Positions 102 through 59,523 of a stretch of DNA of 64,000 bases are shown piece after piece. This DNA comes from Fictibacillus sp. FJAT-27399 (GTDB lineage: Bacteria > Bacillota > Bacilli > Bacillales > Fictibacillaceae). The DNA is taken from positions 1 to 64,000 of the forward strand of contig NZ_LMVC01000003.1 of NCBI RefSeq assembly GCF_001510655.1. Reading direction: 5' to 3'. Under the pieces are notes generated by a model, which was not told where the DNA came from, ran no database searches, and saw only the letters and a program-made list of their open reading frames with translations. Numbering within the stretch: position 1 is the stretch's first letter; each line of letters starts with the position of its first letter. The translations under genes and the position numbers were made by a program.

Positions 102-153
102 TTTACCCGCCGAAATGAGAATTTTACCCGCCAGAATTGCACATTTACCCGCC
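102..153 (+). repeat. Three-unit direct repeat TTTACCCGCC, 21-bp period
   Basis: TTTACCCGCC starts at 102, 123 and 144, exactly 21 bp apart, with 11-bp unrelated spacers between copies. It lies in the 272 bases before the first gene, which hold no other feature I can name. The same architecture recurs elsewhere in the window with different words (1793, 11298, 11548, 17277, 22031, 39332, 39595). Confidence 0.8.
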
Positions 154-272
154 AAAACTGGATTACGTAAACTAGCGACCCATCACCCCACGCTCAAACA
201 ACAAACAAAAAAAAAGAAGCATTATTGATGAACATATGGTATTTTTAGGGAAAAAGAAAAGAGGGGGAATGG

Positions 273-1721: not shown

Positions 1722-1792
1722 AGTGCTGTTTTGGGGGATTGCGAGGATAGAGTGACAAAGGCCGACCGCTAGTTTACCATAATTCCGGTTTG

Positions 1793-1822
1793 GCCAGTAA
1801 ATTTCTCATTCTCGCCAGTAAA
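1793..1822 (+). repeat. Two-unit direct repeat GCCAGTAAA, 21-bp period
   Basis: GCCAGTAAA starts at 1793 and 1814, 21 bp apart, followed in both copies by similar pyrimidine-rich tracts. It lies between the oxidoreductase stop and the terminator. It is a minimal member of the 20-21 bp array class seen across the window. Confidence 0.5.
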
Positions 1823-11188: not shown

Positions 11189-11297
11189 AAGAAGAAAGAG
11201 GGGGTTCCTTGAGGGCCGCCTTTTTTTGGTGGAGGTGGTAGGTTGCTGCGGAAATGTTTGTGTCAAAACTTGTCGGATGGTGTCGCGTATAAACGGA

Positions 11298-11388
11298 TCG
11301 ATAATAAATGGAGGTTTTCGATAATAAAATGAGATTATCGATAATAAAATTGCTTTTTCGATAATAAAAAGCTAATTTCGATAATAAA
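11298..11388 (+). repeat. Five-unit TCGATAATAAA array, 20-bp period
   Basis: TCGATAATAAA begins at 11298, 11318, 11338, 11358 and 11378, exactly 20 bp apart, with 9-bp spacers that differ in sequence. The array follows aprX on the same strand. The same word forms arrays at 17277, 22031 (reverse) and 39332. Confidence 0.95.
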
Positions 11389-11547: not shown

Positions 11548-11631
11548 GATTGGCGTGTATTTTGGGAAGATTGGATCGTAAAACCGGAAGATTCGCGCGT
11601 ATTTTAACCCAATCGGCGCGTATTCCTGAAA
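11548..11631 (-). repeat. Four 21-bp imperfect repeats, open as 7-residue repeats
   Basis: Units start at 11548, 11569, 11590 and 11611 and share the pattern GATTSGCGCGTATTTT with changes. On the minus strand they lie in an open frame giving IRADWVK, IRANLPV, LRSNLPK and IHANLKN-like heptads (11507-11728). No good ribosome binding site supports that ORF, so I list it as a repeat array. Confidence 0.75.
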
Positions 11632-15631: not shown

Positions 15632-15658
15632 TCGGACGTTTGAGGGTGCCCGTTTGAG

Positions 15659-15708
15659 GGTGCCAGGCACCGCTTTTTGACATATGTCAAAAGCCGGTGC
15701 CTGACACC
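15659..15708. repeat. GGTGCC palindromic element, core A
   Basis: A 50-bp inverted repeat: left arm GGTGCCAGGCACC, core TTTTTGACATATGTCAAAA, right arm GGTGCCTGACACC with one change. A partial duplicate of the left flank (GTTTGAGGGTGCC) lies just before it at about 15638-15651. Confidence 0.95.
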
Positions 15709-17276: not shown

Positions 17277-17329
17277 TCGATAATAAAAGAGCCGTTTTCG
17301 ATAATAAATGGGTAGAAATCAATAATTTA
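17277..17329 (+). repeat. Three-unit TCGATAATAAA array, 21-bp period
   Basis: Units at 17277, 17298 and 17319; the third is diverged (TCAATAATTTA). The array sits just after the MFS terminator on the same strand, matching the placement at 11298. Confidence 0.85.
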
Positions 17330-22030: not shown

Positions 22031-22122
22031 TTTATTATCGATAAAACGGATATATTATCGATATTCTATTTTTATTATCGAAAACCGGGATTTATTATCG
22101 AAAAGGACATTTTTATTATCGA
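22031..22122 (-). repeat. Five-unit TTTATTATCGA array, 20-bp period (reverse)
   Basis: Reverse-complement form of TCGATAATAAA. Units at 22031, 22051 (diverged, TATATTATCGA), 22071, 22091 and 22112, so the period is 20, 20, 20 and 21. It lies between the two terminators of convergent genes and is oriented with ctaA. Confidence 0.95.
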
Positions 22123-22193
22123 TTGGATTCCTTTCGACATGAATTGACCGGTTTCGACGCAATCATTTTCATCTGGCTAAGTACAAGCAACAT

Positions 22194-39304: not shown

Positions 39305-39331
39305 TGTTGCGGGGTGTCGTGTATATACCGT

Positions 39332-39423
39332 TCGATAATAAAAGTGGACTTTTCGATAATATATCGGCGTTTTCATTAATAAAATCAGAATTTCGATAAT
39401 AAACTCCTGTTTTCGATAATAAA
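39332..39423 (+). repeat. Five-unit TCGATAATAAA array, 20-21 bp period
   Basis: Units at 39332, 39353 (TCGATAATATA), 39373 (TCATTAATAAA), 39393 and 39413. It lies directly after the DUF4176 terminator on the same strand. Confidence 0.93.
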
Positions 39424-39594: not shown

Positions 39595-39646
39595 TTTATT
39601 TTCAAATTTATAGGGTTTTTGTTCAAAAATACCGATTTATGTTCAA
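39595..39646 (+). repeat. Three-unit TTTATGTTCAA array, 20-21 bp period
   Basis: TTTATTTTCAA at 39595, TTTTTGTTCAA at 39616 and TTTATGTTCAA at 39636. The array ends exactly where the GC-rich repeat fragment begins. Confidence 0.75.
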
Positions 39647-39746
39647 GGAAGGCTTCGGCAGCGTTATATCGCACGAAGAAAATGTGAAATTCATTTTCGA
39701 GGAGTCTCGCACCTTGCACTCCAATCAACTTGTCAATGAAGCCTAT
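39646..39746 (-). repeat. Fragment of the GC-rich repeat, reversed, with the shared insert
   Basis: Read on the minus strand it runs GGCTTCATTGACAAGTTGAT ... GAGACTCCT, then the extra block also found at 5950-6010, and stops at GAAGCCTTCC where the full copy at 5921 would continue. About 95 bases match that copy almost base for base. Confidence 0.88.
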
Positions 39747-39800
39747 TTACAAAAAGATTCCCAAAGCAACATCTTTTAGAAAAGAGCCTTAGGGAAAGAC

Positions 39801-58642: not shown

Positions 58643-59523
58643 TGAGAACCAAGCATAATAACAGATTGGGCTGGCTATTCGCCAGTCCTTACCTTTTATA
58701 TGGGCTGATCTTTTTCCTGATTCCGCTCGGCTGGTCGTTCTATCTGTCGATCACCGACTGGAATTTGATCGCTCCCGTTTTTCATCATGTCGGCTTTGAG
58801 AATTTCATTAAAGCACTGCAAAGCCCCGGCGTTCATGCCGCATTCATTGTTACGTTCAAGTTCATGATCGTGTTCGTGCCGATGGTCATCGCGTCCTCAC
58901 TGATCGTGGCGCTCGTCGTTCACGGTTTGCCGCGGTTCAAAGGCTTGTTCCTGATCGGTTTCTTCCTGCCGTACCTGGCATCCGGCGTTGTATCTTCCTT
59001 TATCGTAAAAGGATTTCTTTCGTACAACAGCCCGGTCAGCACATTCTTGCGCAGCTCGTTCGGACTTGACGTAAACTGGCTCGGAACACCGTTTTCAGCC
59101 CTGCTGGTCGTTTCCATAATCATGGCCTGGAAGTTTACCGGCTACTACGCGCTCATCTTAACGTCAGGCTTTGAATCGATCTCCAAAGAAATTTACGAAG
59201 CGGCAGCCATCGATGGCGTAAACGGCTGGCAGCGCTTTTGGAGAATTACCTTGCCGCTGCTGTACCCGGCTCTTTTCACGACACTCATCCTTTCGATCGG
59301 TGTGACCTTCGGGATTTTTACCGAGGTATACCAGCTGACAGGCGGAGGGCCGAACTTCGCGACCAACACGTGGCAGATGGAGATCTACAAGCAGGCGTTC
59401 CAGAACCTGTCCGCCGGCTATGCATCCGCCGTTGCGCTCATTGCGTCCGTCGTTACGTTCATCTCGATCTTTATCATTCGAAAATTTTTAGAAATGTGGG
59501 GGAAACGAAATGGTTGGACATAA
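58642..59523 (+). CDS. Sugar ABC transporter permease, MalF/UgpA type
   Basis: A 293-residue permease with six helices and the EAA loop YEAAAIDGVNGWQRFWRITLPLL near residue 190, the site that contacts the ATPase. It starts within the stop codon of the binding-protein gene. No ATPase is encoded in the operon; a shared MsmX-type ATPase elsewhere is expected, as is usual for Bacillus CUT1 systems. Confidence 0.92.
   Translation: MRTKHNNRLGWLFASPYLLYGLIFFLIPLGWSFYLSITDWNLIAPVFHHVGFENFIKALQSPGVHAAFIVTFKFMIVFVPMVIASSLIVALVVHGLPRFKGLFLIGFFLPYLASGVVSSFIVKGFLSYNSPVSTFLRSSFGLDVNWLGTPFSALLVVSIIMAWKFTGYYALILTSGFESISKEIYEAAAIDGVNGWQRFWRITLPLLYPALFTTLILSIGVTFGIFTEVYQLTGGGPNFATNTWQMEIYKQAFQNLSAGYASAVALIASVVTFISIFIIRKFLEMWGKRNGWT

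Follow-up and report, generated by a model that had tools for sequence, protein, structure and literature searches.

The window, that is, the whole 64-kb stretch of DNA that was analysed, carries intergenic arrays in which a short word recurs every 20 or 21 bp, with a constant leader beside most of them. The genome under study is referred to as G000 and a second strain of the same species as G060. The arrays and their parts are the following:

102 to 153, minus strand: type C array, three units of GGCGGGTAAA (TTTACCCGCC on the plus strand) 21 bp apart, the TTTACCCGCC copies lying at 102, 123 and 144
160 to 177, minus strand: variant of the type C leader, CGCTAGTTTACGTAATCC, recognised by its likeness to type C leaders elsewhere
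1768 to 1783, plus strand: type C leader GCTAGTTTACCATAAT, an exact match
1792 to 1822, plus strand: type C array, two units of G/CGCCAGTAAA 21 bp apart, with GCCAGTAAA at 1793 and 1814
11246 to 11297, plus strand: type A leader, in which GTC(G/A) boxes at intervals of about 10 bp precede GTATAAACGG
11298 to 11388, plus strand: type A array, five units of TCGATAATAAA starting at 11298, 11318, 11338, 11358 and 11378
11548 to 11631, plus strand: type D array, four imperfect units of GGCGCGTATTTT-like words, leader not recognised
17277 to 17329, plus strand: short type A array with no recognisable leader, TCGATAATAAA at 17277 and 17298 and a degenerate third unit at 17319
22031 to 22122, minus strand: type A array, five units, one of which is TCGATAATATA
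22123 to 22174, minus strand: type A leader
39314 to 39331, plus strand: partial type A leader (GTGTCGTGTATATACCGT)
39332 to 39423, plus strand: type A array, five units, the second and third imperfect
39595 to 39646, minus strand: decayed type A array with another word (TTGAACATAAA), in which TTTATGTTCAA has one exact copy and two degenerate ones

All of the arrays named in the sequence-only reading of this DNA are present at the stated places; minor amendments concern the array at 1793, with only two copies, that at 17277, whose third copy is degenerate, and that at 39595, with a single exact copy. That reading had missed the constant leader, the typical number of units, the position-specific intervals and the switching of words between strains. 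The window also holds a 21-bp tandem pair within a listed reading frame (59421-59462) and a perfect 14-bp duplication (15637-15664), neither of which obviously belongs to the arrays. A dispersed intergenic repeat of about 224 bp with a terminator-like end (39644-39790 in the window; L013:1268-1491) has 48 matches in G000, 51 in G060 and 7 in G005, and a related copy of it seems to interrupt the TTGAACATA array at 39595.

The arrays are real. Exact word pairs of at least 9 bp in the window number 8 at a distance of 20 bp and 7 at 21 bp, against about 0.3 per distance in Markov copies. A 464-kb sample of G000, consisting of the window and 400 kb of the same genome in 20 stretches, yields 12 intergenic pairs at 20 bp and 15 at 21 bp, with none at 19, two at 22 and none at 23 bp, and its coding sequence yields none at 20 and five at 21 bp. 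When distinct intergenic places are counted (words of at least 9 bp), G000 has 15 at 20-21 bp and 0.84 per other distance. The intergenic peak is present in six of the seven sample sets, the five besides G000 coming from its family and [Bacillus] enclensis, with 7 places in G005, 13 in G059 ([Bacillus] enclensis), 4 in G001, 6 in G002-G004 and 7 in a set of nine sister-genus genomes, and the six sets have 0.16-0.84 places per other distance; nine genomes from other families of the order gave 1 place against 0.20 and are without a peak. The sister-genus and other-family sets comprised 20 kb per genome, two very short stretches being omitted. Three of the sample sets have a second, doubled peak at 40 bp.

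The period also holds for individual words. In G000, CGATAATA forms 31 pairs at 19-22 bp and none with the pattern reversed, and among 60 genomes (its own included) such pairs occur in five, with 31 in G000, 4 in G005, 38 in G059 and chance-like single pairs in G042 and G045. A scan of named contigs for the main word returned 31 stretches, from Rossellomorea (R. aquimaris, R. marisflavi and R. vietnamensis), [Bacillus] enclensis, Metabacillus mangrovi and three Bacillus records, and other words of the same period, such as TTGAAAATAAA and AAAGTGGCACAA, lie close by in those stretches. Across all genomes, the 50 TCGATAATA arrays are spaced by 21 bp (100 times) or 20 bp (49 times) and by nothing else, with 19-22 bp allowed. 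The sequence-only reading had named as counter-evidence words no commoner than in shuffled intergenic sequence, or spacing and unit number that vary freely as in slippage repeats. It withstands this comparison in that the words are commoner than in Markov copies and the spacing is fixed. The outcome for unit number is mixed, since it is nearly fixed for types A and B within the genus but runs from 2 to 7 in Rossellomorea (TCGATAATA arrays of R. aquimaris) and from 4 to 15 in type E of G001; in [B.] enclensis, TCGATAATA arrays have 2-5 units, 4 being commonest.

Within the genus, the arrays are elements with a constant leader and a typical number of units. The type A leader has the consensus AAATGAATGnGTCGAAACCnGTCGAATGGTGTCGnGTATAAACnGT (21 aligned copies), and the array follows it. 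Exactly five units are found in 19 of the 23 type A arrays of at least four units in G000 and G060; the shorter arrays L026, L035 and L040 of G000 and L238 and L240 of G060, with two or three units each, lie outside this tally. The first interval is 21 bp in 21 of 23, the second 20 bp in 22 of 23, the third 20 bp in 18 of 23 and the fourth 20 bp in 15 of 21, and this pattern is common to two word families. In the type A arrays of G060, TTGAAAATAAA forms unit 1 in 7 of 10 and unit 5 in 6 of 9, and TTGAACATAAA forms units 2, 3 and 4 in 9, 6 and 8 of 10, respectively. The type B leader, TGAAAATGATGTG(T/A)T with at most one mismatch, is present in six of the seven genomes of the genus (18 matches in G000, 12 in G060, 10 in G003, 6 in G002, 0 in G001, 6 in G004 and 18 in G005), and the reversed control gave 0-1 matches. 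By our reading of 30 of the 70 type B leader places, 24 are followed by word units and 20 by six units of 21 bp; two six-unit arrays contain one 20-bp step. Type B words are GCAAGTAA, GTGAGTAA, GCAACTAA or GCATGTAA/GCACGTAA, and TGTCGAACC occupies many of the odd spacers. The GTCGAA boxes, which lie in type B odd spacers and 10 bp apart in the type A leader (for example, at 11246-11297), resemble tandem Spo0A boxes, TGTCGAA. The type C leader GCTAGTTTACCATAAT has 16 matches, in five of six genomes, and 14 of these lead into arrays of two to five units with the word GGCCAGTAAA, GGACAGTAAA, GGCGGGTAAA, GGCTAGTAAA or GGCTTGTATT. Type E of G001 (TCGCGCGCAG) has a spacing of 21 bp in 295 of 309 cases, 4-15 units and near-uniform alternating spacers; at L054:2690-3290 of the same genome, three tandem superunits, each slightly longer than 200 bp and with a TCGCGCGCAG array, lie behind a 6-phosphogluconolactonase gene.

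The words of different arrays had been called unrelated, a description that does not survive comparison: 15 words tried from types A-D all fit the form GNNN(A/G/C)TA(A/T), the 15 being our own choice, with words such as AAAGTGGCACAA and ATCACGGAAAA and those of type E outside the set and of no obvious fit. CRISPR loci consist of long near-identical repeats with spacers of 25-40 bp and are accompanied by cas genes. With words of 8-11 bp and spacers of 9-13 bp, the arrays have spacers too short for CRISPR, as had been recognised from the outset.

Words are held by selection and spacers drift like flanks at seven orthologous arrays that keep their word, where changes were counted at 3 of 274 word sites, 16 of 271 spacer sites and 213 of 3546 flank sites. 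Eight arrays were intended for this count; that at C8:105057 had no match and was dropped, and loci with switched words were excluded by design. A comparison of 19 type B arrays gave 0.48 word mismatches (of 8 letters) within an array and 1.41 between arrays, and none of 1000 shuffles was as low; spacer difference is 0.65 within arrays and 0.57 between arrays at the same position.

The switching of words shows in the pair counts, which are 31 for TCGATAATA and 0 for TTGAA(A/C)ATA in G000 and 7 and 40, respectively, in G060. At the 11298 locus, leader and position are shared, and G060 has five units of TTGAA(A/C)ATAAA, one of them degenerate, in place of the TCGATAATAAA of G000. At L037/L211, the leader is again shared and each strain has five units in the same position, with different words, and a similar switch is seen at L012/L247, where the leader is poorer in G000. 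Five compared loci keep TCGATAATA in G060. The array at 22031 lacks exactly one 20-bp unit in that strain, that at 39332 keeps two units, three fewer than in G000, that at C8:105057 is partly missing, two TCGATAATA words are left at the L013 locus, and the short array at 17277 is nearly identical, with no change in units. Unit-exact losses, one of 20 bp and one of 60 bp, are among these differences. Although decayed in the window, the TTGAACATA array at 39595 is present with five units and a leader in G060, and the ortholog of the type C array at 1792 has five units after the same leader, against two in the window. The type D array at 11548 is absent from G060, a further word, TCGAGAATAA, is carried there in three units at L010, and at L278 a type B array in G000 corresponds to an inverted type A array in G060. 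Differences at switched loci extend to the spacers and to a stretch of tens to nearly 300 bp behind the array, so that replacement of the whole stretch by recombination is as possible as word-by-word rewriting.

It may be asked whether the arrays are nothing other than intergenic stretches exchanged by plain recombination and expanded in tandem, their words being alike through copying. The unit-exact differences, the free expansion of type E and the altered stretch behind the array at switched loci would all fit such an origin. However, type B spacers are as different within arrays (0.65) as between them (0.57) although the words are alike, leaders and intervals are common to dozens of loci, and words have changed less than spacers at the seven orthologous arrays. 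We regard this explanation, already weakened by these results, as unlikely.

The genomic surroundings agree with the sequence-only reading in the intergenic location of the arrays, mostly on the 3' side of a gene, as do the constant 20-21 bp period and the exchangeable word. Among 42 leader-bearing elements of types A and B, the upstream gene has the same direction as the array in 31. The arrays had also been placed often just past terminators, which is apt in that a T-run lies at most 70 bp upstream in 28 of the 42 and is close for part of type B, but random intergenic points reach 44% (n = 400), so the overall link to terminators is modest. Neighbouring genes are varied, and among the recurring neighbours of 151 loci, some of them overlapping (497 ORFs compared with one another, the largest clusters being judged by examples), no transposase or DNA-handling gene is prominent. 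There are about 20 dispersed array places per genome. In G060, a 450-aa AAA frame, presumably dnaA, begins at the contig start, which was therefore treated as the origin. Of the type B places, 9 of 12 are at most 424 kb from this point, as are 9 of 19 for type A and 4 of 8 for type C, against 12 of 40 for an unrelated dispersed repeat used as control. The distribution is skewed, yet no type differs from the control at 0.05 (Mann-Whitney p 0.62 for A, 0.055 for B and 0.36 for C), and origin clustering was rejected.

These results bear on whether the arrays are binding platforms owned by the host, placed behind genes for a chromosome-organising or transcription-insulating protein of fast-evolving specificity. 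Helical phasing, the typical unit number, selection on words, the co-directed upstream genes and the T-runs counted above are all consistent with such platforms. We nevertheless consider them rather improbable, as type and orientation differ between strains at L278, nearness to the origin in G060 is no different from that of the unrelated repeat, and several words occur per genome. The position after genes, co-directed in 31 of 42, might equally suit a function in RNA, as a 3' sponge or a processing signal, were it not that folding is no better than in shuffles in 9 of 10 elements, that type A mixes spacings of 20 and 21 bp, that many arrays lie just behind a T-run and that orientation can invert at a single locus (L278). 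An RNA function is accordingly very improbable.

Structured RNA was rejected on the finding that only 1 of 10 elements of types A-C has a folding z below -2 against shuffles, and Rfam at its gathering threshold gave no matches in the window. Type B was considered as a repeat protein gene (it reads MKMMCFASK...) and rejected, stops in the spacers of 25 arrays being 15 of 450 in the candidate frame against 6 of 450 and 16 of 450 in the others, as was type A as a coding repeat, given its mixture of 20- and 21-bp intervals. Coding, folded RNA and slippage are not supported as explanations for types A-C. No viral contig has an exact TCGATAATAAA pair. Three copies of GCAAGTAA are found on nine viral contigs, as coding repeats in seven and outside called genes in two that are near-identical, and the type B leader is absent from the 80 bp examined beside these copies. 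Searches with blastn gave no relevant match for single arrays of type A, type B and type C against plasmids or for arrays other than type C against phages. One viral contig, IMGVR_UViG_2716884848_000001 (L166:2960-3075), carries a type-C-like CGCTAGTTTGCC stretch with GGCGGGTAAA words, and this array-like stretch precedes a 492-aa gene that belongs to no clear Pfam family.

The proposal that two helical turns per unit fit protein binding on one DNA face is supported by the constant period, its spread and the interval data, as sites so spaced should allow protomers to line up on one face of the DNA. We consider it likely, with a probability of roughly three in four, that the arrays act at the DNA level, as sites for the side-by-side binding of about five or six copies of a protein whose specificity varies. 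The two-turn spacing, the conserved words, the neutral spacers and the typical unit number all fit such binding. The arrays would then be small dispersed DNA elements, each with a type-specific leader of about 15-50 bp followed by head-to-tail sites for one DNA-binding protein, typically five in type A, up to five in type C and six in type B, and each site would be an 8-11 bp word of the GNNN(A/G/C)TA(A/T) form, two helical turns from the next. A trans-acting protein that varies from strain to strain may determine the word, as the concerted words and the strain-specific intact families suggest; the main-word arrays of a strain are mostly intact, and, at the few loci concerned, other-word arrays tend to lose units. 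As G002, G005 and G060 each combine at least two words with one leader type, one protein per genome would be too simple.

The likeliest candidate for this protein would be a transposase of the kind that binds repeated sites at transposon ends, with the build of IS21, Tn7 or Mu, and the arrays might be non-autonomous elements, maintained in trans, that settle in harmless DNA behind genes. The chain as a whole, from bound arrays through a strain-specific protein of transposase kind to non-autonomous elements maintained in trans, is tentative, and we would put it at somewhat less than even odds. The IS21 element of G005 and the Tn7 end described below speak for it; that no transposase or other DNA-handling gene was prominent among the neighbours compared, and that neither a second, inverted end nor a target-site duplication was seen, speaks against it, as do the variable unit numbers of Rossellomorea and type E. 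It is possible, though doubtful, that the arrays constitute a new class of bacterial element, consisting of a leader and five or six phased sites whose variable triplet has changed in concert at many loci. The concerted change would come about when a strain alters the specificity of its trans-acting protein, and such a class would be the prokaryotic equivalent of a repeat that co-evolves with the protein binding it. If these proposals are correct, the DNA words read at shared loci differ between two strains of a single species, several Bacillaceae hold an undescribed element family in their intergenic DNA, and a change in the specificity of a DNA-binding protein together with its many sites becomes directly testable in bacteria. 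Should the protein be a transposase, the arrays would form a non-autonomous family whose multi-site ends are unusually regular.

A more direct relationship, in which the arrays derive from known transposon families (IS21, Tn7-like or Mu-like) as genuine ends or remnants, is improbable. The build is the same, direct repeats that recur about every two helical turns. By our reading, G005 has an IS21 element (L324:2020-4760) with GGTAAA-like words about 19-22 bp apart near both ends, and the viral contig joins a type-C-like leader to GGCGGGTAAA words. However, no transposase lies beside the arrays, no second, inverted end was seen and no transposase genes between two inverted ends were found, the last units do not, by our reading, end in CA, and the IS21 elements of G008 and contig G001:C18 differ in their words or periods. 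Neither istA nor istB was found in the examined flanks of any type A or B array, although an autonomous copy may lie elsewhere in the genomes. IS21 was rejected as the source of the arrays, IstB-like copies being present in several genomes but beside none of the examined arrays, and so were Tn7- and Mu-like transposases, Mu-transpos_C being found in only 1 of 12 genomes. A target-site duplication was not found, the clearest presence/absence locus (L272, about 288 bp) having no clean boundary. Broken IS21-like copies occur in G000 at C7:87517-88085 and C11:51671-52222.

Among known systems, plasmid iterons form short runs of direct repeats, each about 20-22 bp long and built around a conserved core, with a word that differs by plasmid, and they presumably constitute a class with a constant period and an exchangeable word. 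The arrays differ from them in being dispersed over a chromosome-sized genome, with no replication gene noted beside them. REP/BIME and similar repeats are intergenic, dispersed and often behind genes, but no palindrome was noted in the arrays, and an RNA fold is unsupported. Multi-site transposon ends include those of IS21 (L1/L2 and R1/R2), of Tn7 (TnsB sites) and of Mu. The sites in the ends of Tn7 and Mu are about two helical turns apart, and the Tn7 stretch tgtgggcggacaataaag is one that we take to be the right end, with a TnsB site. Among the open-licence PMC papers listed, none described these words or this build, and the excerpt of PMC5217627, which catalogues spaced intergenic motif pairs in other genomes, includes none of the array kind. 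The nearest dispersed repeat is the STAR element of Staphylococcus, at other sizes. As described in the excerpted text of PMC3532100, STAR elements resemble the arrays as dispersed intergenic direct repeats with a constant word, locus-specific spacers, unit-wise expansion and unknown function, but they have one GC-rich 14-bp word with at least 40 bp between copies, against words of 8-11 bp and spacers of 9-13 bp here, and in that text show no 20-21 bp period, leader or word switch.

The statement that no described class combines a constant period with an exchangeable word was too strong, as the ends of IS21, Mu and Tn7, which according to the relevant part of PMC10122671 hold several direct copies of the transposase site, are so built. 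One Tn7 end, in the portion of sequence given in PMC1475584, reads tgtgggcggacaataaag and holds GACAATAAAG, and its GACAATAAA fits the GNNN(A/G/C)TA(A/T) form. The arrays depart from transposon ends in having no transposase found with them, in being one-sided, and in their constant leader, their typically five or six units and their many copies behind genes. They share with them direct copies of a word about two helical turns apart and a word that differs by element, and a multi-site transposon end is the nearest build to that of the arrays, as an analogy and not as a claim of membership.
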